DNA of 32,196 nt from a virus: the IMG/VR virus record IMGVR_UViG_3300020401_000055, positions 1 to 32,196 of that record; one strand, given 5' to 3'. Position numbers and translations under genes: made by a program. Positions 6,226-31,410 of the stretch are shown piece by piece. The notes beneath the pieces were generated by a model. That model was not told the DNA's origin and searched no databases. It saw only the letters and a program-made list of their open reading frames with translations. Each line of letters begins with the position of its first letter. The stretch's first letter is position 1.

Positions 6226-6849
6226 ATGAAAATGAGTGAAACTCAACCCACTAATATTGCCAAACAATATGGCGGTAATGTTAGAGAAACTATTAACCAT
6301 GCGGAAAGAACTGACCTACCAGGTTCTAGACAAAAAATTCAGAAGTGGGATATGATTCCCAATGCAGACTTTGTTCAAAGAATTGCTGGAGAGTTTGTAA
6401 AAATTATGTCACATGATCTTTTCAAAGGTAAAAAAATTGTTCTGTTTAGTTTACCAGGTGCATTTACACCTACGTGTTCAGAAAAACAGTTACCTGCATA
6501 CGAAGAAATGTATGATAGATTTAAGGCGGCTGGAATAGATGAAGTTTACTGTGTATCAGTCAATGATGGCTTTGTAATGAATGCTTGGGCTAAAGACCTT
6601 GGTATTGAAAAAGTAAAACTATTAGCTGACGGTAATGCAGACTTTACTGACTCAATGGGTATGCTTTGTACTAAAAGAGCTAAAGGATTTGCTAATAGAA
6701 GTTGGAGATATTCGTTGTATGCAGATAACGGAATCGTACAAGAAGCATTTGTTGAACCTGGATTTAATCACAAAGATGAGGACGATGATCCTTATACTTG
6801 TACTGATCCGGAAACAATGATCCAATTCGTAGAAGCATCAGCTAGATAA
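6226..6849 (+). CDS. Peroxiredoxin, Prx5/AhpE-type redoxin
   Basis: A thiol peroxidase that would reduce peroxides in the infected cell. The peroxidatic motif PGAFTPTCS places the reactive Cys at C84; other Cys are C109, C148 and C192. The family arginine region is FANRSWRYSLYADNG (about 155-169). The first 45 residues (MKMSETQPTNIAKQYGGNVR onward) are an extension not needed for the fold. At 207 aa it is longer than typical Prx5 (about 160). AAGGA lies upstream of the start. It stands between the recombination block and the glycan island and is an auxiliary metabolic gene. Family is clear; physiological role is inferred. Confidence 0.88.
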   Translation: MKMSETQPTNIAKQYGGNVRETINHAERTDLPGSRQKIQKWDMIPNADFVQRIAGEFVKIMSHDLFKGKKIVLFSLPGAFTPTCSEKQLPAYEEMYDRFKAAGIDEVYCVSVNDGFVMNAWAKDLGIEKVKLLADGNADFTDSMGMLCTKRAKGFANRSWRYSLYADNGIVQEAFVEPGFNHKDEDDDPYTCTDPETMIQFVEASAR

Positions 6850-15678: not shown

Positions 15679-16181
15679 GAATATTAACCTTAGATAACGA
15701 AACGTTTCATCTGAATAACTTGCCAGAGGAACTAACAGAAGACGTCCGCTTTAGTGTGCTAGACAATAGCAATCCTAAAGAGCCAGACTTTTATTTTATG
15801 CCTTTAATTTTCCTAGAAAGTTTTAATGCACCCGCAATGGTATTAGAAATAAACGGCAAAGAAATTACAATGCCTGTAGATTGGAATCTAGCAGTAGGCG
15901 ATAGTGAAGGTGGAGGAGATATTGAAGTGCTACCTTTAACTAGTTTGAATGACAGAGGCTTTGAAGCATTTCTTTTCAATCCCTTATCAAGCTACACTAT
16001 GAATTGGGGAGAAGTAAAGATTACTAATTTTTATAATGATATGAAATGGTACTTCCCAAAAACTAAAAACGGACAACTACTTGGTGTGCCAATTACTGAC
16101 GGTAAAGAACCACAATGTGCTTGGTTTATAAAAGATATTAGTAGACAAAGTGAAACAATAGATTATGGATTACTCATCTGA
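15675..16181 (+). CDS. Conserved hypothetical protein (168 aa)
   Basis: No named domain is recognised. The sequence is beta-rich and soluble: MRILTLDNETFHLNNLPEEL, then an Asp/Pro-rich segment with PDFYFMPLIFLESFNAPAMV, an ITMPVDWNLAVGDSEGGGD loop, and near the C terminus DGKEPQCAWFIKD. The ATGA overlap with the preceding gene suggests one transcript with uvsW. It overlaps the next gene by 17 bases. Confidence 0.8.
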   Translation: MRILTLDNETFHLNNLPEELTEDVRFSVLDNSNPKEPDFYFMPLIFLESFNAPAMVLEINGKEITMPVDWNLAVGDSEGGGDIEVLPLTSLNDRGFEAFLFNPLSSYTMNWGEVKITNFYNDMKWYFPKTKNGQLLGVPITDGKEPQCAWFIKDISRQSETIDYGLLI

Positions 16182-16893
16182 TAAAATAATATTAGAAGTT
16201 TATACTAACCAACAATACGTAATGGATCAGTGTCAACCTACGTTGGCAAGAAACTTTATTCCTGAATGGTGGAAAAGTTTACCACCTAGTAGGACAGAAA
16301 CAAATTTATACACTCACGGTAGTCCTGTACCAATTAGTAGCATGAAACAATGTCCTGCTATTAATGATATATTAAGAGAAGGTGTTATCTTTCCTAGCTG
16401 GTGTGAACTGCATTTAGATTGTGACCAATATGGTAAATTGGATCAAAGAGTGTTTCCAGAACATACTGCATTACTACCACATGATAAACAAGATTGGGAT
16501 TTTCATAAACCAAATTATGCACACGTTAAGGTAGGTAGTCCTTGGCTAATAAAAGAATCCACAGGTGTTAAATGGGTGTGGATAAAACCGGAATGGCACC
16601 AAAAAGATCCACTTGCATATTGGGGTGTACCGGGTGTCATAGAATATAAACACCAACACGCAGTACTTAACAACATAATGATTAAGTATGGTACAAGTTG
16701 TAAAATCAATACAGGCGATCCTTGGTTGCAATTAATTCCAATGTCAGACAAACCAATCGAAGTTAAATGCCAGCTCGTGAGTGATGCAGAAATGAATAGA
16801 TTAAATACAACTAACATATCTGCCGTTGGTAGTTATGGCAAGTCGATTAGAAATAAAAAACGTCAGGAAGGTAGATTGAATGAAAACGATTAG
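16165..16893 (+). CDS. DUF6065-like protein, copy 1 (242 aa)
   Basis: The architecture matches the second copy at 22604: a PEWWKSLPPSR segment (about 34-44), a CPAINDILREG motif followed by PSWCELHLD, a central PWL segment, and a C-terminal DPWLQLIPMSDKP. In the second copy the corresponding segments are PEWFKKQ, CPGILDVLNQG with PLWSDYKVV, NPWYVKTP and CQVIPFKRED. I assign both to the DUF6065-like phage/bacterial family from memory; its biochemical function is unknown to me. A metal- or sugar-binding enzyme role next to methyltransferases and an oxygenase is only context. Confidence 0.65.
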   Translation: MDYSSDKIILEVYTNQQYVMDQCQPTLARNFIPEWWKSLPPSRTETNLYTHGSPVPISSMKQCPAINDILREGVIFPSWCELHLDCDQYGKLDQRVFPEHTALLPHDKQDWDFHKPNYAHVKVGSPWLIKESTGVKWVWIKPEWHQKDPLAYWGVPGVIEYKHQHAVLNNIMIKYGTSCKINTGDPWLQLIPMSDKPIEVKCQLVSDAEMNRLNTTNISAVGSYGKSIRNKKRQEGRLNEND

Positions 16894-19310: not shown

Positions 19311-20621
19311 ATGTTCAAATCACTTTCAGAAAGTGTTGGTAACTTTTTTAGTTTACCTAAAGGCAGTTCAGTCAGAACGGAAGTTATGGCAGGATTGGCT
19401 ACCTTTCTAACTATGGCATATATCACGGTTGTAAACCCTGCTATATTGTCAACAGAAGGTACCGGTATGGAGTTCGGTGCCGTATTTACTGCAACCATTA
19501 TTGCGGCTGTGGTAGGTACACTAATTATGGGACTTTGGGCCAAATGGCCTGTAGCACTAGCACCAGGAATGGGACTAAATGCCTTTTTTGCATTTGGTGT
19601 TGTCTTTGGAATGGGCTACACTTATCAACAGGCACTAGCGGCTGTATTCATTGCAGGTTTAGTGTTCATTGGTTTAAGTGTAACACCTGCTAGGAAATAC
19701 ATCATCAATAGTATTCCCAAGTCAATGAAACTCGGTGTAGGAGCAGGTATAGGTTTGTTCCTTGCTATCATTGGTTTGAAGAATGCTGGGGTTGTTGTAG
19801 ATAACCCGGCGACATTAGTTGGACTTGGAGATATTTCAAGCTGGCCAGTATTATTAGCAGGACTTGGTTTTGCTATTATGGCCATTGCAGATAAACGTGG
19901 TATCCCAGGTGCAATTATTATAGGTATATTAGCAACAAGTATCATTGCATGGATTTTTGGTATTTCAGAAATCGGCGGTGTTGTTGGTAGCATTCCTAAC
20001 CCAAGTCACGCATTTAGCATGGACTTTAGTTTAATAGCGACAGCTGGTTTCATTGGAACTGCATTTGCATTTTTATTTGTAGACTTCTTTGATACGGCAG
20101 GAACACTTACAAGTGTTGCTAACTTAACAGGTAAGGTTGATAAGAATGGCGAAGTCGAAGGAATCGACAGAGCTTTATTGGCTGACTCTGTTGCTACATC
20201 AGTTGGAGCATTAGCAGGTACTTCAAATACTACATCATACATTGAGTCTGGTGCTGGTATTAAAGAAGGTGGTAAGACAGGACTAACGGCAGTAACAGTT
20301 GCCGTATTGTTTGCACTATGTTTATTCTTTGCACCATTGGCGCAGAGCATTCCAGCATTTGCAACGGCTCCTGCTTTAGTATTCATCGCAACATATTTCT
20401 TACGTAATCTTAAAGATATCGAATGGGAAGATGTAAGTGAATACGCACCAGCAGTACTGGCGGCAATCATTATGCCGTTAACTTTTAGTATTGCATATGG
20501 TATAGCACTTGGCTTTATTGCATACGTTATCATTAAAGCAGTAAGTGGCAAACACGCAGATTTAAATGGCGGTTCATTAGCAATCGCGGCTGTTAGTGTT
20601 TTATACTTTGCAGTAGCATAA
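19311..20621 (+). CDS. AzgA-type purine (adenine/guanine/hypoxanthine) permease, NCS2 superfamily
   Basis: A full-length polytopic inner-membrane transporter (436 aa, about 12 hydrophobic segments) importing purine bases with protons. AzgA-family signatures are present: MAYITVVNPAIL (about 35-46), ALAPGMGLNAFFAFG (about 82-96), FVDFFDTAGTLTSVAN (about 256-271) and TSNTTSYIESGAGIKEGGKT (about 304-323). The gene is visibly richer in G+C than its neighbours: by hand count 30/60 in 19501-19560 and 27/60 in 20341-20400, versus 17/60 in 17641-17700, although Gly/Ala-rich membrane protein composition contributes. It has its own strong ribosome site and is followed by a terminator. Recent acquisition from a bacterium is likely. 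Substrate choice between adenine, guanine and hypoxanthine is not resolved. Confidence 0.92.
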   Translation: MFKSLSESVGNFFSLPKGSSVRTEVMAGLATFLTMAYITVVNPAILSTEGTGMEFGAVFTATIIAAVVGTLIMGLWAKWPVALAPGMGLNAFFAFGVVFGMGYTYQQALAAVFIAGLVFIGLSVTPARKYIINSIPKSMKLGVGAGIGLFLAIIGLKNAGVVVDNPATLVGLGDISSWPVLLAGLGFAIMAIADKRGIPGAIIIGILATSIIAWIFGISEIGGVVGSIPNPSHAFSMDFSLIATAGFIGTAFAFLFVDFFDTAGTLTSVANLTGKVDKNGEVEGIDRALLADSVATSVGALAGTSNTTSYIESGAGIKEGGKTGLTAVTVAVLFALCLFFAPLAQSIPAFATAPALVFIATYFLRNLKDIEWEDVSEYAPAVLAAIIMPLTFSIAYGIALGFIAYVIIKAVSGKHADLNGGSLAIAAVSVLYFAVA

Positions 20622-20672: not shown

Positions 20673-20942
20673 ATGGGCAATCTAATACCAGGGGCAAAAT
20701 TAATTTACGAAAGAGTTGACGATACTGTTTATGCAAGATACAGAGATCCACCACATAATAAAATACCAAGATGGGAAGTAGGAGGTTCACCAAAACAAAT
20801 GGAACTTTTTGACCATTGGGAATTTGAAGAAATGATGAAAGCATCAAAAGACTATCCTACACTCAAAAAATCACTTGACAAATTGTTTACAATATGGTAT
20901 ACTATAAAAGATGAAGCCGAAAAGAAAATTACCGCTGAATGA
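20673..20942 (+). CDS. Small conserved phage protein (89 aa)
   Basis: The product begins MGNLIPGAKLIYERVDDTVY and contains a YRDPPHNKIPRWEVGG loop, with helices from about 42 onward (MELFDHWEFEEMMKASKDYP). No named domain is recognised. AAGGA precedes the ATG. Its last third contains the promoter for the next gene, and its stop lies 32 bases inside that gene. Confidence 0.8.
   Translation: MGNLIPGAKLIYERVDDTVYARYRDPPHNKIPRWEVGGSPKQMELFDHWEFEEMMKASKDYPTLKKSLDKLFTIWYTIKDEAEKKITAE
20875..20903 (+). promoter_or_regulatory. Sigma70-type promoter, leaderless arrangement (gp62 candidate)
   Basis: TTGACA (20875-20880), a 17-base spacer and TATACT (20898-20903) are followed after seven bases (ATAAAAG) by ATG 20911, with no Shine-Dalgarno site. 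The predicted start of transcription falls within a base of the ATG. The whole promoter is embedded in the preceding coding region. Confidence 0.7.
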
Positions 20943-21378
20943 GATCTTTATGGCCATGGATATGAATGGCAAAGGTGCATTTGATGAGTGGACAGAAGAA
21001 GAACGGAAAGAACTTAACTTTTGGTTATTGAATCGTTATGCTAGTTCTGTTGCAGGTACAAGAGAAGCAAAAGAATTGGCTGTATTACTAACTAATGAAA
21101 ACTATAACAAGAATTGGAACATACTAGGAACAAGACATCCTAAACTACAATGGCAGTTGCTATGCACACTACACAATGCAAAAAGTTCTAGCAAACAACA
21201 CGTTTGGCAAGGACTAAAACAAAAGAGTGGTGATGCAAAGATCATAAAGTTTTTAAAAGATATGTTTCCTAACATGAAAGAAGATGAGGTAGACTTACTT
21301 GCTAAATTATCTACAACAAAAGAACTTAAACAATACGCCGAAGACCTCGGGATGGATAAAAAAGATGTCAAGCTCTAA
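20911..21378 (+). CDS. 62: Probable clamp-loader small subunit gp62 (155 aa)
   Basis: The sequence resembles T4-type gp62, the small subunit that works with gp44 to load the sliding clamp. The order of features agrees with cyanophage gp62 from memory: an N-terminal LNEIFMAMDMNGKG helix, FWLLNRYASSVAGTREAKEL with the conserved Asn-Arg, HPKLQWQLLCTLHNAKSSSK, KIIKFLKDMFPNMKEDEVDL and a final short helix. The identity is low and was judged by eye. ATG 20911 is preferred over ATG 20950 because the promoter predicts a leaderless message beginning there. It overlaps the zinc-finger gene by 14 bases. Confidence 0.55.
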   Translation: MKPKRKLPLNEIFMAMDMNGKGAFDEWTEEERKELNFWLLNRYASSVAGTREAKELAVLLTNENYNKNWNILGTRHPKLQWQLLCTLHNAKSSSKQHVWQGLKQKSGDAKIIKFLKDMFPNMKEDEVDLLAKLSTTKELKQYAEDLGMDKKDVKL

Positions 21379-22051
21379 ACCATTTACTTGTCCTTATTGT
21401 GGTGCAAGTTTTACTAGAGAAAAAACTCTTGCAGTTCATATGTGTGAAAAGAAACGTAGACACTTTCAAAAAGATGAGAAACGTGTACAGCTTGGCTATT
21501 TGACTTTCAATAGATTTTATAAGCTATGTCAGAAAGCAAAAGAGAATAAAACGTATGAACAGTTTTGTGATAGTCCATACTACAACGCATTTGTAAAGTT
21601 TGGATCATTTGTAAACAATGTGCGTCCACTATATCCAGAGAAGTATGTAGACTATGTTGTAACAAGCGGAGTAAGATTAGATCATTGGTGCAGAGAAGAA
21701 ATGTATGAACGTTATGCACTAGACTTGATATTAAAGGAAAGTGTTGAAACTGCACTTGAACGTAGTGTAAAAACAATGATGGATTGGGGTGAAGATAAAG
21801 AAGCTAGATGGCAAGACTACTTCAACTATTGTAGTTTGAATAGAGCAACACAAGATATCAAAGATGGAAAAGTAAGTCCATGGTTAATATTAAATTGTAA
21901 AAGTGGAAAAGAGATGTTAGGTAAATTTAATGATGAGCAACTACAGATTGTATATCATGTAATGAATCCTAATCATTGGGCTATGCGTTTTAAAAGAGGC
22001 GTAGCAGATGTTGAATTAGTAAAAGAGATTGTTAAAGAAGCAGGATTATAA
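21365..22051 (+). CDS. Conserved phage protein with N-terminal C2H2 zinc finger (228 aa)
   Basis: Residues 9-33 form a zinc finger: C9-x2-C12-x12-H25, with C27 or H33 as the fourth ligand (FTCPYCGASFTREKTLAVHM). The remaining 190 residues are conserved-looking and partly helical, with NAFVKFGSFVNNVRPLYPEK, SGVRLDHWCREEMYERYALD and KVSPWLILNCKSGKEML. From memory this protein is conserved in marine T4-like phages without an assigned function. The start at 21365 is chosen because the finger follows directly; an upstream in-frame start would lie deep in the gp62 gene. It is coupled by TAATG to the DnaE-like gene, so a replisome or DNA-repair role is a reasonable inference. Confidence 0.8.
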   Translation: MSSSKPFTCPYCGASFTREKTLAVHMCEKKRRHFQKDEKRVQLGYLTFNRFYKLCQKAKENKTYEQFCDSPYYNAFVKFGSFVNNVRPLYPEKYVDYVVTSGVRLDHWCREEMYERYALDLILKESVETALERSVKTMMDWGEDKEARWQDYFNYCSLNRATQDIKDGKVSPWLILNCKSGKEMLGKFNDEQLQIVYHVMNPNHWAMRFKRGVADVELVKEIVKEAGL

Positions 22052-22617
22052 TGCCAGATATAGATATAGACTTTGCAGATAGAGATGTTATACTTAACAA
22101 GTTAAAGCATCGTGTGGCAAGGTTAGATACAAAAAAGAAACATAACACAGGAGTATATGTAACGGAAGTTCCGCACAATCCTGTTGATATGTTATCTACT
22201 TTAGATCATAAGACGGCAGAAGACAGGGGATACTTTAAACTAGACTTTCTTAATGTTAGTCTGTATAAAGATATAAAAGATGAAGAGCATCTTACTAAAC
22301 TTATGACAAAGGAACCATTATGGGATTTACTCACAGAAGCAGAATTCACAAGCAAATTATTTCACGTAGGAGAACACAGCTCCCTACTAAAAAAACTGAA
22401 ACCGAAAACGATATTGGAACTAGCGGCGACACTGGCGATAATAAGACCCGCAAAGAGATATCTGCAAGACAGCTCTTGGGAGGACATACACAAGGAAGTT
22501 TGGACAAAGCCAAGTAGTGGTGAATACTTCTTTAAGAAAGCACACGCAGTCGCATACGCACACGCAATAGTGGTGCAGATGAATCTAATATGTGAACAAC
22601 TATATGAAAACAACTAA
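22051..22617 (+). CDS. Miniature DNA polymerase III alpha (DnaE)-like protein (188 aa)
   Basis: Four short motifs of bacterial DnaE occur in the DnaE order inside 188 residues: MPDIDIDFADRDVI (1-14; palm Asp motif, normally PDxDxDF), GYFKLDFLNVSLYKDI (60-75; DnaE KxDFLGLxxLxxI, with the third palm Asp at D65), TLAIIRPAKRYLQ (127-139; DnaE ALYRPGP-like) and YFFKKAHAVAYAHAIVVQMN (159-178; DnaE FNKSHAxAYA). DnaE is about 1100 aa; PHP, thumb, most of the fingers and the OB and tau-binding domains are absent here. It may be a non-polymerising derivative, a structural part of the phage replisome or a decoy for the host clamp or clamp loader. It overlaps the zinc-finger gene by TAATG. Confidence 0.65.
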   Translation: MPDIDIDFADRDVILNKLKHRVARLDTKKKHNTGVYVTEVPHNPVDMLSTLDHKTAEDRGYFKLDFLNVSLYKDIKDEEHLTKLMTKEPLWDLLTEAEFTSKLFHVGEHSSLLKKLKPKTILELAATLAIIRPAKRYLQDSSWEDIHKEVWTKPSSGEYFFKKAHAVAYAHAIVVQMNLICEQLYENN

Positions 22618-23341
22618 AGTTACATTTTTTACACACTTTGAAGAACTTAAAGAAAGTTTGCCACCTGTACCAGCAAGTAAGTTTTGGCCTGAATGGTTTA
22701 AGAAACAAAAGACTCCTGAAGTACAAATGTCGCAGGAACTTATTGATAGAGGTGGACCTAAGACTGTAAAAAGTTGTCCAGGTATACTAGATGTTCTTAA
22801 TCAAGGCTACATTATTCCTTTATGGAGTGACTACAAAGTAGTACGTGTACCAGGCACACAAGAACAGCCACAAGGTATCAGATGGAGAATGCCAGGCGGA
22901 CAACAAAGTATGTTTGGTGCTAGTACACACCCTATGGAACAGATGGATGCTTATCCGTTTGGTCCTGATACATTTAATGGTAGTTTTAAGTTTATGAATC
23001 CCTGGTATGTGAAAACACCTCCAGGATATAGTTGTATGTTTGTTGCACCTTATTATAACAAGCACAAAAATTTAGAAATAATGAATGGTATAATAGATAC
23101 AGATTTATATCATGAAGCACACATTAATAGTTTCTTTACTGCACCTATGGGTGAAGAAATAACATTTGAATACGGTATGCCTATATGTCAAGTGATCCCT
23201 TTCAAGAGAGAAGATTATGAAATGGAAGTGTTGGTAGGCGACCATCGATCAATGCACAACAAAGTGACTCAGTTTATTCACAACAGCTTATTCAAAGCAC
23301 AACACTATAGACCCAAGTTAAGTCCGAAGAGGTACAAATGA
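22604..23341 (+). CDS. DUF6065-like protein, copy 2 (245 aa)
   Basis: Shares its motif order with the gene at 16165: PEWFKKQKTPEVQM, SCPGILDVLNQGYIIPLWSD, FKFMNPWYVKTPPGYSCMFV, FFTAPMGEEITFEYGMPICQ and VIPFKRED. Membership of the DUF6065-like family is assigned from memory; function unknown. I used ATG 22604; an in-frame GTG at 22592 would add four residues. It overlaps the DnaE-like gene by 14 bases and the next gene by ATGA. The second copy is more regular than the first around NPW...GYS, suggesting long divergence rather than a recent duplication. Confidence 0.65.
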   Translation: MKTTKVTFFTHFEELKESLPPVPASKFWPEWFKKQKTPEVQMSQELIDRGGPKTVKSCPGILDVLNQGYIIPLWSDYKVVRVPGTQEQPQGIRWRMPGGQQSMFGASTHPMEQMDAYPFGPDTFNGSFKFMNPWYVKTPPGYSCMFVAPYYNKHKNLEIMNGIIDTDLYHEAHINSFFTAPMGEEITFEYGMPICQVIPFKREDYEMEVLVGDHRSMHNKVTQFIHNSLFKAQHYRPKLSPKRYK

Positions 23342-23628: not shown

Positions 23629-24321
23629 TTATTTCCAACCTAATTCTCTAATATGTGTATTAAGTTTTCTTGCAAGGTTATAATGACCTTTGTCATTTAG
23701 ATGACTTGAATCATCTTCTTCGTAATAATGTGCTTCATTAAATAAATCTTCATCTGCTTCTTTGTAAGAATTAAATTCATGGTCCTGATCTAATTCAAAG
23801 AATGGATTTATTCGACTACGTAAGAAGACAGTCTTTATCTTCTTGTCACGTAACATAGACATAAACATTGTATGGTGTGCTGTAAATTGTTGCTTACTGA
23901 ATTCTTCTGACACGTGTCTTTCTTCATATTGTTTTACAAACTTACCTTCCTTAGGATAAGGTTTGTTCAACCAAGTATGTGCTTTCATTTTATATCTAAT
24001 GATACTACCATCTTCTGGACCTTCTTCACGTAAAGGTCTACGTTTCTTGCCATTAATAACTATAGGTCTGTCTGGTGAATATTGAGACCAAAACTCTTGT
24101 CTTTCAGTATTAGTATATTGCACGATTAATATATCATTAACGTCTAGTGTACTATTGTATACCATGTTTCCAACTGTACGCCATATACGCCAATTGGATC
24201 CTGAGCCGGCGCCCTCATGTACATACTTCCTACCTAAGAACGCGGCTAACTGTTCTCCGTATGTATAACTATTTTTTTCCATGTAGTCTGAAAAGCTACA
24301 ACCTGCTACAACTAGTTTCAT
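23629..24321 (-). CDS. SGNH/GDSL-like hydrolase (230 aa)
   Basis: Block I is VVAGCSFSDY (4-13), with a Ser in the place of the nucleophile (GxSxS/GDS type), and the C-terminal block V is DSSHLNDKGHYNLA, giving the DxxH pair D204 and H207. These are the SGNH esterase/lipase-like signatures, a superfamily that deacetylates or acetylates sugars and lipids. The middle is polar, with ILIVQYTNTERQEFW as a block III-like strand. It ends the only minus-strand operon of the window and overlaps the alternative oxidase gene by ATGA. A second SGNH-like protein is encoded at 31752. Substrate unknown; a glycan ester is a guess. Confidence 0.75.
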   Translation of the reverse strand: MKLVVAGCSFSDYMEKNSYTYGEQLAAFLGRKYVHEGAGSGSNWRIWRTVGNMVYNSTLDVNDILIVQYTNTERQEFWSQYSPDRPIVINGKKRRPLREEGPEDGSIIRYKMKAHTWLNKPYPKEGKFVKQYEERHVSEEFSKQQFTAHHTMFMSMLRDKKIKTVFLRSRINPFFELDQDHEFNSYKEADEDLFNEAHYYEEDDSSHLNDKGHYNLARKLNTHIRELGWK

Positions 24322-24923
24322 TTCTCTTCCTTTAATATGTCTGCCATCTTATGATTCTCTTGTGCATGGCCTCTTTCATCTTCTCTCACCGCAATAACTA
24401 CATCACGTAACTTTGCATCTTCTTTTAATCCGTAATAATTTTTTGCAATCTCTGGTGCGTCTATGTTTTCTATCTTTCCAAGTTCAATAGCTTTTAAATA
24501 ACTTGTATAACTTATTACTGCTTGTTCCTCAAAATAGCCTACCATTCTATGTGCAACTGTTGGAAAGAAAATGTACAAGAACATATAGAAGTGCCAGAAT
24601 AAAAATTGTGCAGTAATGATCATCCAACGTTCAAACCAATTAGGTTTTGCAATCTCAATGAATATCATTAAGTGCATACGTTCATTTTCTGCTTCTGCTA
24701 ATAGTGTTTTAATCCAACCTCTATCATCTGGTTTCATTTTTCTTAAGCTACGCAAATGATTCCACATACCTGCAACCATGCCAGGAACTCCAGCTACAGT
24801 TTCTAATACTACTGCTCTATGTCCATAACGTTTAGCAAAAAAAGTATCTGCTATCCAACGCAAACGCATTGTAAAAAATAACGCACATCTATCTCCGAAT
24901 CCCTCGGGTCTTTTGTGTTTCAT
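24318..24923 (-). CDS. Alternative oxidase (AOX), diiron quinol oxidase
   Basis: The AOX signatures are intact: VLETVAGVPGMVAGMWNHL (39-57, ligand E41), AENERMHLMIFIE (78-90, E81 and H84), YFEEQAVISYT (130-140, E132/E133) and REDERGHAQENH (180-191, E183 and H186). All six diiron ligands are therefore present. Two hydrophobic stretches (about 86-91 and 101-122) fit interfacial membrane association. The enzyme passes electrons from quinol to O2 without pumping protons. At 201 aa it is compact, with no organelle targeting extension. It sits between a conserved unknown gene and an SGNH gene, overlapping both by ATGA. It is closer to bacterial/mitochondrial AOX (NERMHL) than to a plastid oxidase by eye. 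Confidence 0.92.
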   Translation of the reverse strand: MKHKRPEGFGDRCALFFTMRLRWIADTFFAKRYGHRAVVLETVAGVPGMVAGMWNHLRSLRKMKPDDRGWIKTLLAEAENERMHLMIFIEIAKPNWFERWMIITAQFLFWHFYMFLYIFFPTVAHRMVGYFEEQAVISYTSYLKAIELGKIENIDAPEIAKNYYGLKEDAKLRDVVIAVREDERGHAQENHKMADILKEEK

Positions 24924-26131: not shown

Positions 26132-27160
26132 ATGAGTAGTCTAGTTTATGATACGATAATTGCCCACCTTCCCAGTAAACGGAAAACAACTCCATCTGGT
26201 TGGACTTCGTTCAATGCTCCATGCTGTCATCACAATGGGACTACTCAAGACCAAAGACAACGTGGAGGATTAATTAAGAACCAAACCCAAGACGGAGTAA
26301 GCTATCATTGTTTTAACTGTGGATTCAAAGCTTCTTGGCAGACAGGCCGTAAGCTATCTGGCAAGATGAAATTATTGTTGCAATGGCTAGGTGCTTCAGA
26401 CGAAACAATTACTAAATTGGCTTTGGCAGTTTTACAGTTCAATGAGACAAAAGGTTTCAAAGAAACTATTGTAGAACTTCCAAAGTTCGTCGACAAAGAC
26501 TTGCCCGAAGGTGCAAGACCAATTAACCAATGGGATGATTGGCAGGCACTAGAACCAACTGGTGTTGATGAAAATTTAATTAAAGTTTTAGAATATATGA
26601 AGTCTAGACAAATATATTTAGACGACTATAACTTTCATTGGACACCTAAGATTGGTTACAAGGACAGACTCATAGTTCCATTTTATCATAGAGATTTTGA
26701 TAACAACAAACGTAGGATTGTAGGTTGGACCGCACGTAAAGTTAATGATGGAAGTCCAAAGTATATGAGTGAACAACAACCAGGCTATGTGTTTAATTTA
26801 GATGCACAGAATTATAAAAGAATCTTTTGTATTGTAGTAGAAGGACCGTTTGATGCTATTGGTGTTGACGGTGTTGCACTACTAGGTAGCGAAGTCAAAG
26901 ATCAACAGGCCTTGGCCATAAATGCGTTAAATAAGAAAGTAATACTAGTTCCGGATCGTGATGATAACGGAAATAAATTAATGGAACAAGCAATTGAATT
27001 AGGTTGGTCAGTAAGTATGCCAGATTGGAGTGATGACGTTAAAGATGTTAATGACGCAGTAATCAAGTATGGCAGAATGTACACACTACACACAATAGTT
27101 TCTAGTACAGAAGATTCAGAATTAAAAATTAAATTAAGGAGCAAGAAATGGTTTGGTTAA
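26132..27160 (+). CDS. 61: DNA primase gp61
   Basis: This is the T4-type primase that makes RNA primers together with the gp41 helicase. The N-terminal zinc-binding domain carries C31/C32, H33/H34, C60 and C63 (FNAPCCHHNG and YHCFNCGFK). The TOPRIM domain has VVEGPFDAIG (E237 region), LVPDRDDNG (273-280) and KDVNDAV (304-310). At 342 aa its length equals that of T4 gp61. It is transcribed from its own leaderless promoter and overlaps a small gene at its 3' end. Confidence 0.94.
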   Translation: MSSLVYDTIIAHLPSKRKTTPSGWTSFNAPCCHHNGTTQDQRQRGGLIKNQTQDGVSYHCFNCGFKASWQTGRKLSGKMKLLLQWLGASDETITKLALAVLQFNETKGFKETIVELPKFVDKDLPEGARPINQWDDWQALEPTGVDENLIKVLEYMKSRQIYLDDYNFHWTPKIGYKDRLIVPFYHRDFDNNKRRIVGWTARKVNDGSPKYMSEQQPGYVFNLDAQNYKRIFCIVVEGPFDAIGVDGVALLGSEVKDQQALAINALNKKVILVPDRDDNGNKLMEQAIELGWSVSMPDWSDDVKDVNDAVIKYGRMYTLHTIVSSTEDSELKIKLRSKKWFG

Positions 27161-28391: not shown

Positions 28392-28982
28392 ATGTCAAAT
28401 CTTATACCTATGGTAGTCGAGTCTACCAACAAAGGAGAAAGAGCATACGACATTTACAGCCGTCTATTAAAAGATAGGATTGTTATGTTGAATGGTCCTG
28501 TAGAAGACCATAGTGCAAATATTGTAGTTGCACAAATGCTTTTTTTAGAAAGTGAAAGTCCTGAAAAGGATATTAATTTTTATATTAATAGCCCAGGTGG
28601 AGTTATTACAAGTGGCATGAGCATTTACGATACAATGCAATTTGTTAAGTGTGATGTTAGTACAATAGTATTAGGACAGGCTTGTTCAATGGGATCATTC
28701 CTAGCCCAAGCAGGTGCTCCTGGTAAACGTATCCTGTTACCAAATGCACGTACAATGATTCATCAACCAAGTGGTGGTGCAAAAGGTATGGCAAGTGATA
28801 TTGAAATACGTTATAAGGAAATACAATACTTAAAAGAAAACTTAACCAAGCTATATGTTAAACACAACACAGCAGGTAAAACATATGATGACTTTATGCG
28901 TGATATGGATAGAGATTATTTTATGAGTGCTGAAGAAACAGTAGCATACGGATTAGCAGATAAGATCAAGGAGACAAGATAA
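28392..28982 (+). CDS. clpP: ClpP-like serine protease subunit
   Basis: This is the proteolytic subunit of the Clp system. The sequence has [18 protein letters not shown] (65-82), the nucleophile motif [14 protein letters not shown] (S99), [11 protein letters not shown] (H124) and [12 protein letters not shown] containing the catalytic Asp (171-182). At 196 aa the length is normal, with a complete triad. AAGGAG lies 9 bases before the ATG. It would assemble with host or phage Clp ATPase to degrade proteins, or process virion proteins as in some phages; the latter is inference. The end overlaps the next ATG (TAATG). Confidence 0.95.
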
Positions 28983-29974
28983 TGATTACTTGGGGAATGG
29001 TAGGAAACAGTCATGATGCTTCATTGGCAGTATTCATAGATGACAAACCTGTATGGGCTTGTATGTCTAAAGACTTTTCTGACGTTCCTAATGATCCAGA
29101 CTTTAGTTGGACACAGATAGAAGCCGCAAGGCAAAGCTATGGTCCACCTGACAGAGTTGTTTGGTATGAAAAACCTTTCTTGAAAACTTTAAGACAATGG
29201 AGAGCAGGACAAGGTTGGCTATACAAAGAAAATAATATCAAAGAGTATCTTAAGAAGTGGGGCATAACTTGTCCTATAGTGTATGCTAAACATCATAAGT
29301 CACACGCCGCATACGGATTCTTTACTAGTGGATTACCTAATGCAACTATTATGTGTTTAGATTCAATAGGTGAGTTTGAAACGTTTACTATATGGACGGG
29401 TGATTCATATGTACCTGGTGCAGGACTCAAGCAAGTGTATTCAGGAAAGTATCCACATAGTGTTGGATTGTTTTATAGTGCAATGACACAACGTTGTGGA
29501 TTCGAACCTAACGCAGAAGAATATAAAGTTGCACCCGCAGGTCACGATATAAACACACAGGAAAATTTACATCTCGTTAATGATGTTATTGGTACGTTTA
29601 TTGACAGTCCATTAGATGGATCAAAGCCAGGCGTAAAGTTCAAGCATAATCTACATAAAGGTTGTAGTTGGTACAAACCAGATCTTACAACTGAAAGCGA
29701 CATGAAAAGATTAGCAAATGCTACTCAATTTGTTTTTGAACTTATACTAAAAAGCAATAGCAAATGGTGTTTGGAAAACTTACCAAGTCGTAATTTAATA
29801 CTAACAGGAGGCTGTGCTTTAAATAGTGTAGCAGTAAATCAAATTAAAAAGAATTGGAATAACATATATGTTCCAAAGAATCCAGGTGATCCTGGAAGTT
29901 GCATTGGTGCAGTTTTGGCAATGGACGAAAAACACATTGACTTTAATGATAAAATATGGTATAATACAAAGTGA
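28982..29974 (+). CDS. NodU/CmcH-type carbamoyltransferase, N-terminal domain only (330 aa)
   Basis: Carries the carbamoyltransferase N-terminal signatures: MVGNSHDASLAVF (6-18), AKHHKSHAAYGF (102-113, metal/substrate His), CLDSIGEFETFTIW (125-138), YPHSVGLFYSAMTQRCGF and LTGGCALNSVAV near the C terminus. Typical NodU/CmcH enzymes have about 550-600 residues with a C-terminal YrdC-related carbamoyl-phosphate domain; that domain is absent here, so the protein is either a shortened functional type or needs a partner. O-carbamoylation of a sugar would fit the glycan genes of this phage. The end of the gene contains the promoter and start of gene 41. Confidence 0.85.
   Translation: MITWGMVGNSHDASLAVFIDDKPVWACMSKDFSDVPNDPDFSWTQIEAARQSYGPPDRVVWYEKPFLKTLRQWRAGQGWLYKENNIKEYLKKWGITCPIVYAKHHKSHAAYGFFTSGLPNATIMCLDSIGEFETFTIWTGDSYVPGAGLKQVYSGKYPHSVGLFYSAMTQRCGFEPNAEEYKVAPAGHDINTQENLHLVNDVIGTFIDSPLDGSKPGVKFKHNLHKGCSWYKPDLTTESDMKRLANATQFVFELILKSNSKWCLENLPSRNLILTGGCALNSVAVNQIKKNWNNIYVPKNPGDPGSCIGAVLAMDEKHIDFNDKIWYNTK
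29937..29965 (+). promoter_or_regulatory. Consensus sigma70-type promoter, leaderless arrangement (gp41)
   Basis: TTGACT (29937-29942), a 17-base spacer and TATAAT (29960-29965) are followed by GTG at 29971 after 5 bases and ATG at 29974 after 8 bases. There is no Shine-Dalgarno site. The promoter is embedded in the carbamoyltransferase gene. Confidence 0.8.
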
Positions 29975-31410
29975 TGAAACAAAATACTGACTATGGATTT
30001 GATATCCAAAAAACATATTTGGAGATAATGTTAAGTGATGCACAGACTTATGTGCGTTGCCAAGCTGTCTTTGATCCACAGAATTTTGATAGAAGATTAC
30101 AACAGTCAGCAGAATTTATAAAAGGCTTTGTTGAAGAACACAACACACTTCCTACAGAAAAAATTGTTAATAGTGCTTGTACGCAAGTTAAACTAGAAGT
30201 TCCTAAAGGACTTAATGAACAACACTATGATTGGTTGCTTACAGACTTTGAAACATTTAGTAGACATAAAGCATTAGAACGTGCAATATTAGAAAGTGCA
30301 GACTTACTTGAAAAGGGTGAGTATGGTCCAGTTGAAACTAAAATTAAAGATGCAGTACAGATAGGTTTACAGAAAGACCTAGGTATAGATTACTTTGCAG
30401 ACCCTAAAGGTAGACTTATGGGATTGAAAGATAACAATGGACAAGTAAGCACAGGTTGGGAAAGTTTAGATAAGAAACTGTTTGGTGGATTCAACAAAGG
30501 TGAGTTGAATATATTTGCAGGTGGTAGTGGTGCAGGTAAATCTTTGTTCCTTGCAAACTTAGGTTGTAACTGGGCATTGAATGGAATGAACGTTGTATAT
30601 CTAACATTAGAATTAAGTGAAGCCTTAGTTGCTATGCGTATTGATAGTATGATGACAGATATTCCAAGCAGAGAAATATTTAGAGATCTTGATACTGTTG
30701 AAATGAAAGTTAAGATGGTAGGCAAGAAGTCAGGTAGTATGCAGATCAAATATATGCCAAGTGGTAAGACTGCAAATGATATTAGAAGTTTTGTAAAAGA
30801 ATATGAAGTTAAGAACAATAGAAAGATTGATGTATTATTAATTGACTACTTAGACTTGTTAATGCCAATGAGTAAGAAAGTAAGTCCAAGTGATTTATTT
30901 GTTAAAGATAAATTTGTATCTGAAGAACTTAGAAACTTGGCAATGGAACTACAATGTATCTTTGTTACTGCATCGCAGTTAAACAGAGCTAGTGTTGAAG
31001 AAATTGAATTTGATCATTCGCATATTGCAGGTGGTTTAAGTAAGATACAAACTGCTGATAATGTTATAGGTATCTTTACAAGTAGAGCTATGCGTGAACG
31101 TGGTAGATATCAAATACAGTTAATGAAAACTAGAAGTAGTTCAGGTGTAGGTGCAAAGATAGATTTAGAATTTGATATTGACTGTTTACGTATTAGAGAC
31201 TTGGCGGAAGATGAAGACTATCAAGAATTTAATAAACGTAAGAGTACAATTTATGAAGGACTTAAACGTTCAAGTGTAACAACAGACAAAGAGCCTGACA
31301 CACCCAAAGAACCAACACAAGGTGAAATAGTAAAACCAATTAAAGCTGAGACTGACAGCACAAAGTTAAGATCATTCTTAGCTAACTTAGGCAACGACGA
31401 AGAGGAGTAA
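29974..31410 (+). CDS. 41: Replicative DNA helicase gp41 (DnaB-like)
   Basis: A DnaB-family hexameric helicase that unwinds the fork and, with gp61, forms the primosome. The N-terminal domain spans about 1-140. The P-loop is AGGSGAGKS (182-190), Walker B is DVLLIDYLDLLMP (about 286-298), and VTASQLNRAS with SHIAGGLSKIQTADNV gives the later DnaB motifs. At 478 aa the length equals T4 gp41 (475). I chose ATG 29974, although GTG 29971 would be equally compatible with the promoter (one added residue). The tail (about 425-478) is acidic and polar. Confidence 0.94.
   Translation: MKQNTDYGFDIQKTYLEIMLSDAQTYVRCQAVFDPQNFDRRLQQSAEFIKGFVEEHNTLPTEKIVNSACTQVKLEVPKGLNEQHYDWLLTDFETFSRHKALERAILESADLLEKGEYGPVETKIKDAVQIGLQKDLGIDYFADPKGRLMGLKDNNGQVSTGWESLDKKLFGGFNKGELNIFAGGSGAGKSLFLANLGCNWALNGMNVVYLTLELSEALVAMRIDSMMTDIPSREIFRDLDTVEMKVKMVGKKSGSMQIKYMPSGKTANDIRSFVKEYEVKNNRKIDVLLIDYLDLLMPMSKKVSPSDLFVKDKFVSEELRNLAMELQCIFVTASQLNRASVEEIEFDHSHIAGGLSKIQTADNVIGIFTSRAMRERGRYQIQLMKTRSSSGVGAKIDLEFDIDCLRIRDLAEDEDYQEFNKRKSTIYEGLKRSSVTTDKEPDTPKEPTQGEIVKPIKAETDSTKLRSFLANLGNDEEE

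Follow-up and report, generated by a model that had tools for sequence, protein, structure and literature searches.

The 32,196-nucleotide stretch of viral DNA analysed here (hereafter the window) contains a gene for a protein of only 188 residues that displays motifs characteristic of the bacterial DNA polymerase III alpha subunit (DnaE), raising the question of what so short a relative of a family C polymerase might do in a phage. An earlier note, made from the sequence alone, had regarded it as a remnant that might act as a regulator, a decoy or a self-contained repurposed palm domain. We predict instead, with an estimated probability of about 0.72, that it is the C-terminal half (C-half) of a two-gene minimal family C polymerase core, the N-terminal half (N-half) of which is encoded by a separate gene in related phages.

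A split minimal Pol III alpha has previously been predicted (Iyer et al. 2021, PMC7824862, section 3.4.1, Fig. 3b) for jumbo phages of group 2.2; there, phages that have a T4-type family B polymerase encode a C-terminal protein for Mg2+ and template binding separately from an N-terminal one that binds NTP. The assembly of the halves and DNA polymerisation by them are predictions in that study too, and its authors use the split enzyme in an argument on early polymerase evolution. As the arrangement is already described there, the window protein represents a marine member of the reported kind. What is new here is the exact split point, the co-inheritance of the halves, a conserved zinc-finger neighbour and the presence of an unsplit DnaE in close relatives. 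We found no experimental work on the C-half protein in the literature.

The short DnaE-like gene and its neighborhood

The open reading frame is a real, strongly conserved gene, and its product carries the DnaE motifs in order, with all four lying where the earlier note had placed them (Table 1). It begins with an ATG that overlaps the TAA stop of the preceding gene by one base (TAATG). A scan of IMG/VR recovered at least 550 relatives, and the 80 best loci among these were retained. Homologues that share its start and length number in the hundreds, and the initial MPDIDIDF is constant in all 80 of the closest marine loci. The dN/dS values against the three closest relatives are 0.05, 0.08 and 0.13. 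Moreover, D3, D5, D7, H31, G34, K63, D65, R132, P133, K135, H165 and Y169 are identical in every one of 169 homologues, and the retention of three catalytic-type aspartates (D3, D5 and D65) noticed in the single sequence extends to all of these homologues.

Profile searches recovered DnaE with a strength that depended on the database. The C-half matches PHROG 11778 (~197 residues, annotated 'DNA polymerase') with an e-value of 4e-61 and, weakly, PHROG 405, the full DnaE (E=3e-7); with the Pfam finger model the e-value is 0.0087, which falls short of the Pfam cut-off. A profile of 88 homologues run against all PDB sequences matched almost only DnaE chains, again weakly (best E=0.009), and a PDB search with the single C-half sequence was uninformative. 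Together with the structural alignment described below, these matches bear out the proposed DnaE ancestry. Phage records yielded 63 relatives, nearly all from jumbo phages, for example RaK2, GAP32, 121Q, PA5oct and Atu_ph07.

The suggestion that the gene belongs to a replication neighborhood also holds, with genes for UvsX, UvsW, gp61 and gp41 lying near it. The closest matches to the window UvsX and gp41 come from Vibrio 2.275, Atu_ph07, Phosso and PA5oct, and this proximity to group 2.2 makes it most likely that the window is a piece of the genome of a marine phage belonging there. Taken with its relatives, the C-half shares with the published group 2.2 system the separate C- and N-proteins alongside a family B polymerase, with homologues in RaK2, PA5oct, Atu_ph07 and GAP32, and differs from it in that the window clade is marine and metagenomic, the zinc-finger neighbour is conserved and some relatives have an added unsplit DnaE. 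Stenotrophomonas phage RAS14 is the sole isolate in which the C-half occurs without detected zinc-finger, 155-residue, gp61 or gp41 neighbours.

Table 1. Positions of the C-half, its motifs, its conserved neighbours and the unsplit DnaE of a close relative
Feature	Position	Strand	Remarks
C-half, predicted to bind Mg2+ and template in a split minimal DNA polymerase III alpha	22051..22617	+	188 aa, PHROG 11778
PDIDIDF palm strand, residues 2-8	22054..22074	+	D3 and D5 correspond to the two DxD catalytic Asp of DnaE; 169/169
KLDFLNV strand, residues 63-69	22237..22257	+	K63 and D65 (third catalytic Asp); 169/169
IRPAKRYL, residues 131-138	22441..22464	+	Counterpart of the RPGP motif in the DnaE fingers; R132, P133, K135 invariant
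FKKAHAVAYA (KKAHAVAYA is residues 162-170)	22531..22560	+	Counterpart of DnaE FNKSHxxAYA; H165, Y169 invariant
C2H2 zinc-finger protein, PHROG 11058	21365..22051	+	Directly 5' of the C-half; homologue upstream in 149/151 loci with room
155-aa protein, PHROG 11758, function unassigned	20911..21378	+	Neighbour in 145/147 loci with room
DNA primase, T4 gp61-like	26132..27160	+	Downstream in 55/56 loci with room; name from synteny with annotated phages
Replicative helicase, T4 gp41/DnaB-like	29971..31410	+	Closest to PA5oct-group jumbo phages; follows in 49/56 loci
Unsplit PHP-less DnaE, ~547 aa, in the closest relative	L185 13065-14705 (G013:C1:19064-20704)		Motifs TRGS, PDVDIDF, LKVDIL, RPVA, RAHAVN

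Several other genes of the window deserve mention. Two paralogues of PHROG 7084, function unassigned, lie at 16165-16893 and 22604-23341 (both +), the second of which has a match to Pfam DUF6065 as well; another copy is found near 225 kb in the collinear contig G113 discussed below. A peroxiredoxin-like protein (6226-6849, +; Redoxin, E=2e-26), a xanthine/uracil permease family protein (19311-20621, +; PF00860, E=9e-52), which as a membrane transporter is unusual for a phage, and a ClpP protease (28392-28982, +; E=1e-76) are also encoded, as is, on the opposite strand, an alternative oxidase (24318-24923, -; PF01786, E=6e-78), here within a marine jumbo phage genome.

The complementary half and the mapping of both halves on DnaE

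In DnaE the GRGS motif, which in the Pol beta-like nucleotidyltransferase fold binds the nucleotide about to be added by its triphosphate, lies about 40 residues N-terminal of the PDxDxDF strand. The C-half chain begins at that very strand, with MPDIDIDF, and thus lacks the GRGS-type dNTP-binding motif. The motif was likewise absent from the upstream zinc-finger gene and from all other open reading frames of the window, which contains no N-half. Nor did we detect genes in which the C-half is fused to the N-half or to the zinc finger, the in-frame stretch upstream not exceeding 47 codons in any of 160 loci.

A search with PF07733 of the genomes of eight isolate jumbo phages revealed in each of them a separate, small, GRGS-bearing protein. 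This N-half, ~175 residues in length, ends ~29 residues past the GRGS, at ..EFLK or ..EFLN, which corresponds to the DnaE position directly before PDxDxDF. The end point is alike, within a few residues, in 80 IMG/VR loci; the GRGS is invariant among the N-halves, and no N-half continuing into PDIDIDF was seen among these loci. The split point can hence be written as FL(N/K/R) | (M)PDIDIDF. The N-half of locus L135 matches PHROG 11127 (E=1e-48). Both PHROG 11127 and PHROG 11778 are annotated just as 'DNA polymerase', names that are silent on their apparently being parts of one enzyme.

We then compared both halves with cellular DnaE structures. An AlphaFold2 model of the C-half monomer, built on the 88-sequence alignment (pLDDT 88.9, pTM 0.75), aligns along the entire chain with the palm and fingers of DnaE. 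VIA-align matches its residues 1-186 to E. coli DnaE ~400-781 (Z 8.7, rmsd 4.0, 177 aligned) and gives Z of 8.5-9.0 with the M. tuberculosis and Thermus enzymes, a Z of 9 being moderate. DnaE/PolC chains occupy the top 14 rows of this comparison, and Foldseek matches of the models are weak (E above 1e-3). The N-half profile matches E. coli DnaE 322-392 and its model (pLDDT 87.8) aligns to 278-394, with Z of 10-12.5 over the DnaE chains. On DnaE the ranges of the two halves thus lie end to end, ~5 residues apart and with zero overlap. Residues 1 to ~85 of the N-halves (loci L105-L184) do not align to DnaE and contain no recognised Pfam domain.

In the predicted structure the C-half comprises those strands of the palm that bear the three catalytic aspartates, together with the initial portion of the fingers, which contacts the template. 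Its ~180 residues are spread over ~380 DnaE positions, which implies that the chain lacks what we take to be the thumb and much of the fingers; nothing of DnaE outside 400-781 is covered, and the PHP, thumb, clamp-binding and OB regions are absent. In comparison with the cellular enzymes of E. coli, T. aquaticus and M. tuberculosis, the pair has the same motif order, catalytic aspartates and RPxx and KxxHxxxY motifs, and a like palm fold with the first part of the fingers, but differs in consisting of two chains and in lacking the PHP, thumb, later fingers, clamp-binding and OB parts. The earlier claim that most polymerase domains are gone is therefore true of the C-half gene itself and fails for the dNTP-binding part of the palm, which relatives encode in another gene.

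Distribution of the halves, the family B polymerase and unsplit DnaE

All eight isolate jumbo phages tested have both halves. Among longer metagenomic contigs, the C-half is present in seven of eight N-half contigs of at least 200 kb, and both the N-half and a family B polymerase (PolB) occur in each of six C-half contigs of at least 220 kb from a broad set of relatives (G082-G087). Within the clade of the window the picture is fragmentary: the contigs of its nearest relatives, which are incomplete and reach 144 kb, have no N-half, neither N-half nor PolB is found in G001 (167 kb), G002 (262 kb) and G003 (101 kb), and the window fragment itself has no family B polymerase. That the clade might lack both genes was considered and rejected when a probe made from the end gene of G002 led to contigs G113, G110 and G084, which have both; no N-half lay within a few kb of this end gene in 80 fetched flanks. 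Of these contigs G113 (267,783 bp) is collinear with the window throughout: 34 window genes recur in it in unchanged order, with identities of 49-89%. The C-halves of G113, G110 and G084 are 70%, 64% and 63% identical to that of the window, and each of these contigs additionally carries the N-half and PolB (PF00136), the latter being found in other contigs of the clade as well. The lack of both genes in G001 and G002 is most simply explained by the incompleteness of these contigs, and by inference from the collinear G113 the window phage itself would possess an N-half. The supposition that the locus adds a second type of polymerase to a family B enzyme is borne out by the C-half relatives, G113 included. 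None of the ten records tested contained a family A polymerase.

The halves lie far apart in the linear contigs (61 versus 183 kb in G084, 18 versus 230 kb in G113 and 20 versus 251 kb in G110). Their distance matrices are correlated across 27 genomes (Mantel r=0.70, p=0.0002), which is compatible with joint inheritance, shared descent giving such a correlation as well as interaction would.

An additional family C polymerase emerged in the closest relative of the window, G013 (92.5% identity in the zinc finger, 93% in ClpP and 88% in gp41): an unsplit DnaE (Table 1), the C-terminus of which reads as OB-like from its sequence. Among phage records its best match has an identity of only 35%. The unsplit form is common, with 80 loci kept, and is also found in G005, G007, G021, G094, G100 and G120-G131. 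In G013 one gene separates it from the gene at which the window ends; from this arrangement the window phage probably encodes an unsplit DnaE ~1 kb beyond the window. In many marine phages it lies on the same strand as the C-half, 4-10 kb downstream of it; among the 80 unsplit-DnaE loci, 26 have the C-half within the fetched flank, 4-9 kb upstream and on the same strand in every case. No contig was seen to contain the N-half and the unsplit DnaE together, the contigs with the latter being fragments of at most 144 kb.

A proposed split polymerase and the alternatives to it

The two genes are complementary in sequence and fold, co-occur in collinear relatives and preserve their catalytic-type residues without exception. 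As the relatives encode the dNTP-binding part of the palm in a conserved gene of its own, the pair reads as a single split enzyme, and the presence of this other half argues against the remnant, the regulator, the decoy and the self-contained palm of the earlier note. A decaying fragment or a chance similarity, as the short length and the weak Pfam match (E=0.0087) might have suggested, is refuted by the hundreds of homologues of the same start and length, the dN/dS of 0.05-0.13 and the PHROG family of its own. It is also very improbable that the C-half acts alone as a decoy or inhibitor of host DNA polymerase III components or of the clamp: its DnaE ancestry would suit such a role, but the invariance is concentrated on the catalytic face rather than the outer surface, the other half is available as a partner gene, and the parts of DnaE considered to bind the clamp, tau and epsilon are absent.

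The pair could be a structural or regulatory module that binds dNTPs, primer ends or host replication factors and uses the aspartates only for metal; the loss of the thumb, much of the fingers and the PHP, clamp-binding and OB parts, and the family B replicase of the relatives, would be in keeping with this. We nevertheless hold it to be unlikely, because non-catalytic reuse normally relaxes at least one catalytic-type residue, whereas D3, D5, D65, K63, R132 and H165 are invariant in 169 homologues and the GRGS is invariant in the N-halves. In the subclade of the window the C-half might alternatively work with, or be in the course of displacement by, the unsplit ~545-residue DnaE rather than the N-half. 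Their proximity on one strand in 26 of 80 loci, the unsplit gene just past the position of the window end in G013 and its failure to share any contig with the N-half favor this. However, the unsplit enzyme has all of its own motifs and so does not need an extra half, the C-half is at least as well conserved in phages with the unsplit enzyme, and the missing N-half shows little on contigs of at most 144 kb; we judge this partnership quite improbable. A related proposal, that a phage of this subclade combines up to three DNA polymerase systems, namely the family B enzyme, the split Pol III alpha and the unsplit DnaE, so that the C-half could serve as an exchangeable catalytic subunit with the unsplit enzyme, is in our opinion an unlikely one.

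Under the favored reading of a split minimal Pol III alpha, the two halves would dock to rebuild one nucleotidyltransferase site, in which the N-half would hold the triphosphate, and the C-half two Mg2+ ions, the primer end and the template; such a pair would add nucleotides. Since it has no thumb, PHP, clamp-binding or OB parts, it is more likely to act in short-patch, gap-filling or recombination-linked synthesis than as a second processive replicase, with bulk replication presumably left to the family B enzyme. The conserved zinc-finger neighbour might put the polymerase on DNA, a guess that stems from synteny. That a very small enzyme can work is illustrated by the ASFV-type family X polymerases, which have a Pol beta-like nucleotidyltransferase site in ~175-190 residues; these resemble each of the halves in size but are single chains of a different family, and may be compared to them as functional analogs only.

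If the halves assemble, they would constitute a family C polymerase of extremely small size whose active site is naturally split, and would help in asking which parts of Pol III alpha catalysis needs and for what reason a bacterial-type enzyme is retained by a phage that has a family B replicase. With the split point mapped, the invariance across 169 sequences established and the conserved neighbours identified, two small proteins suffice to put the idea to a direct test.
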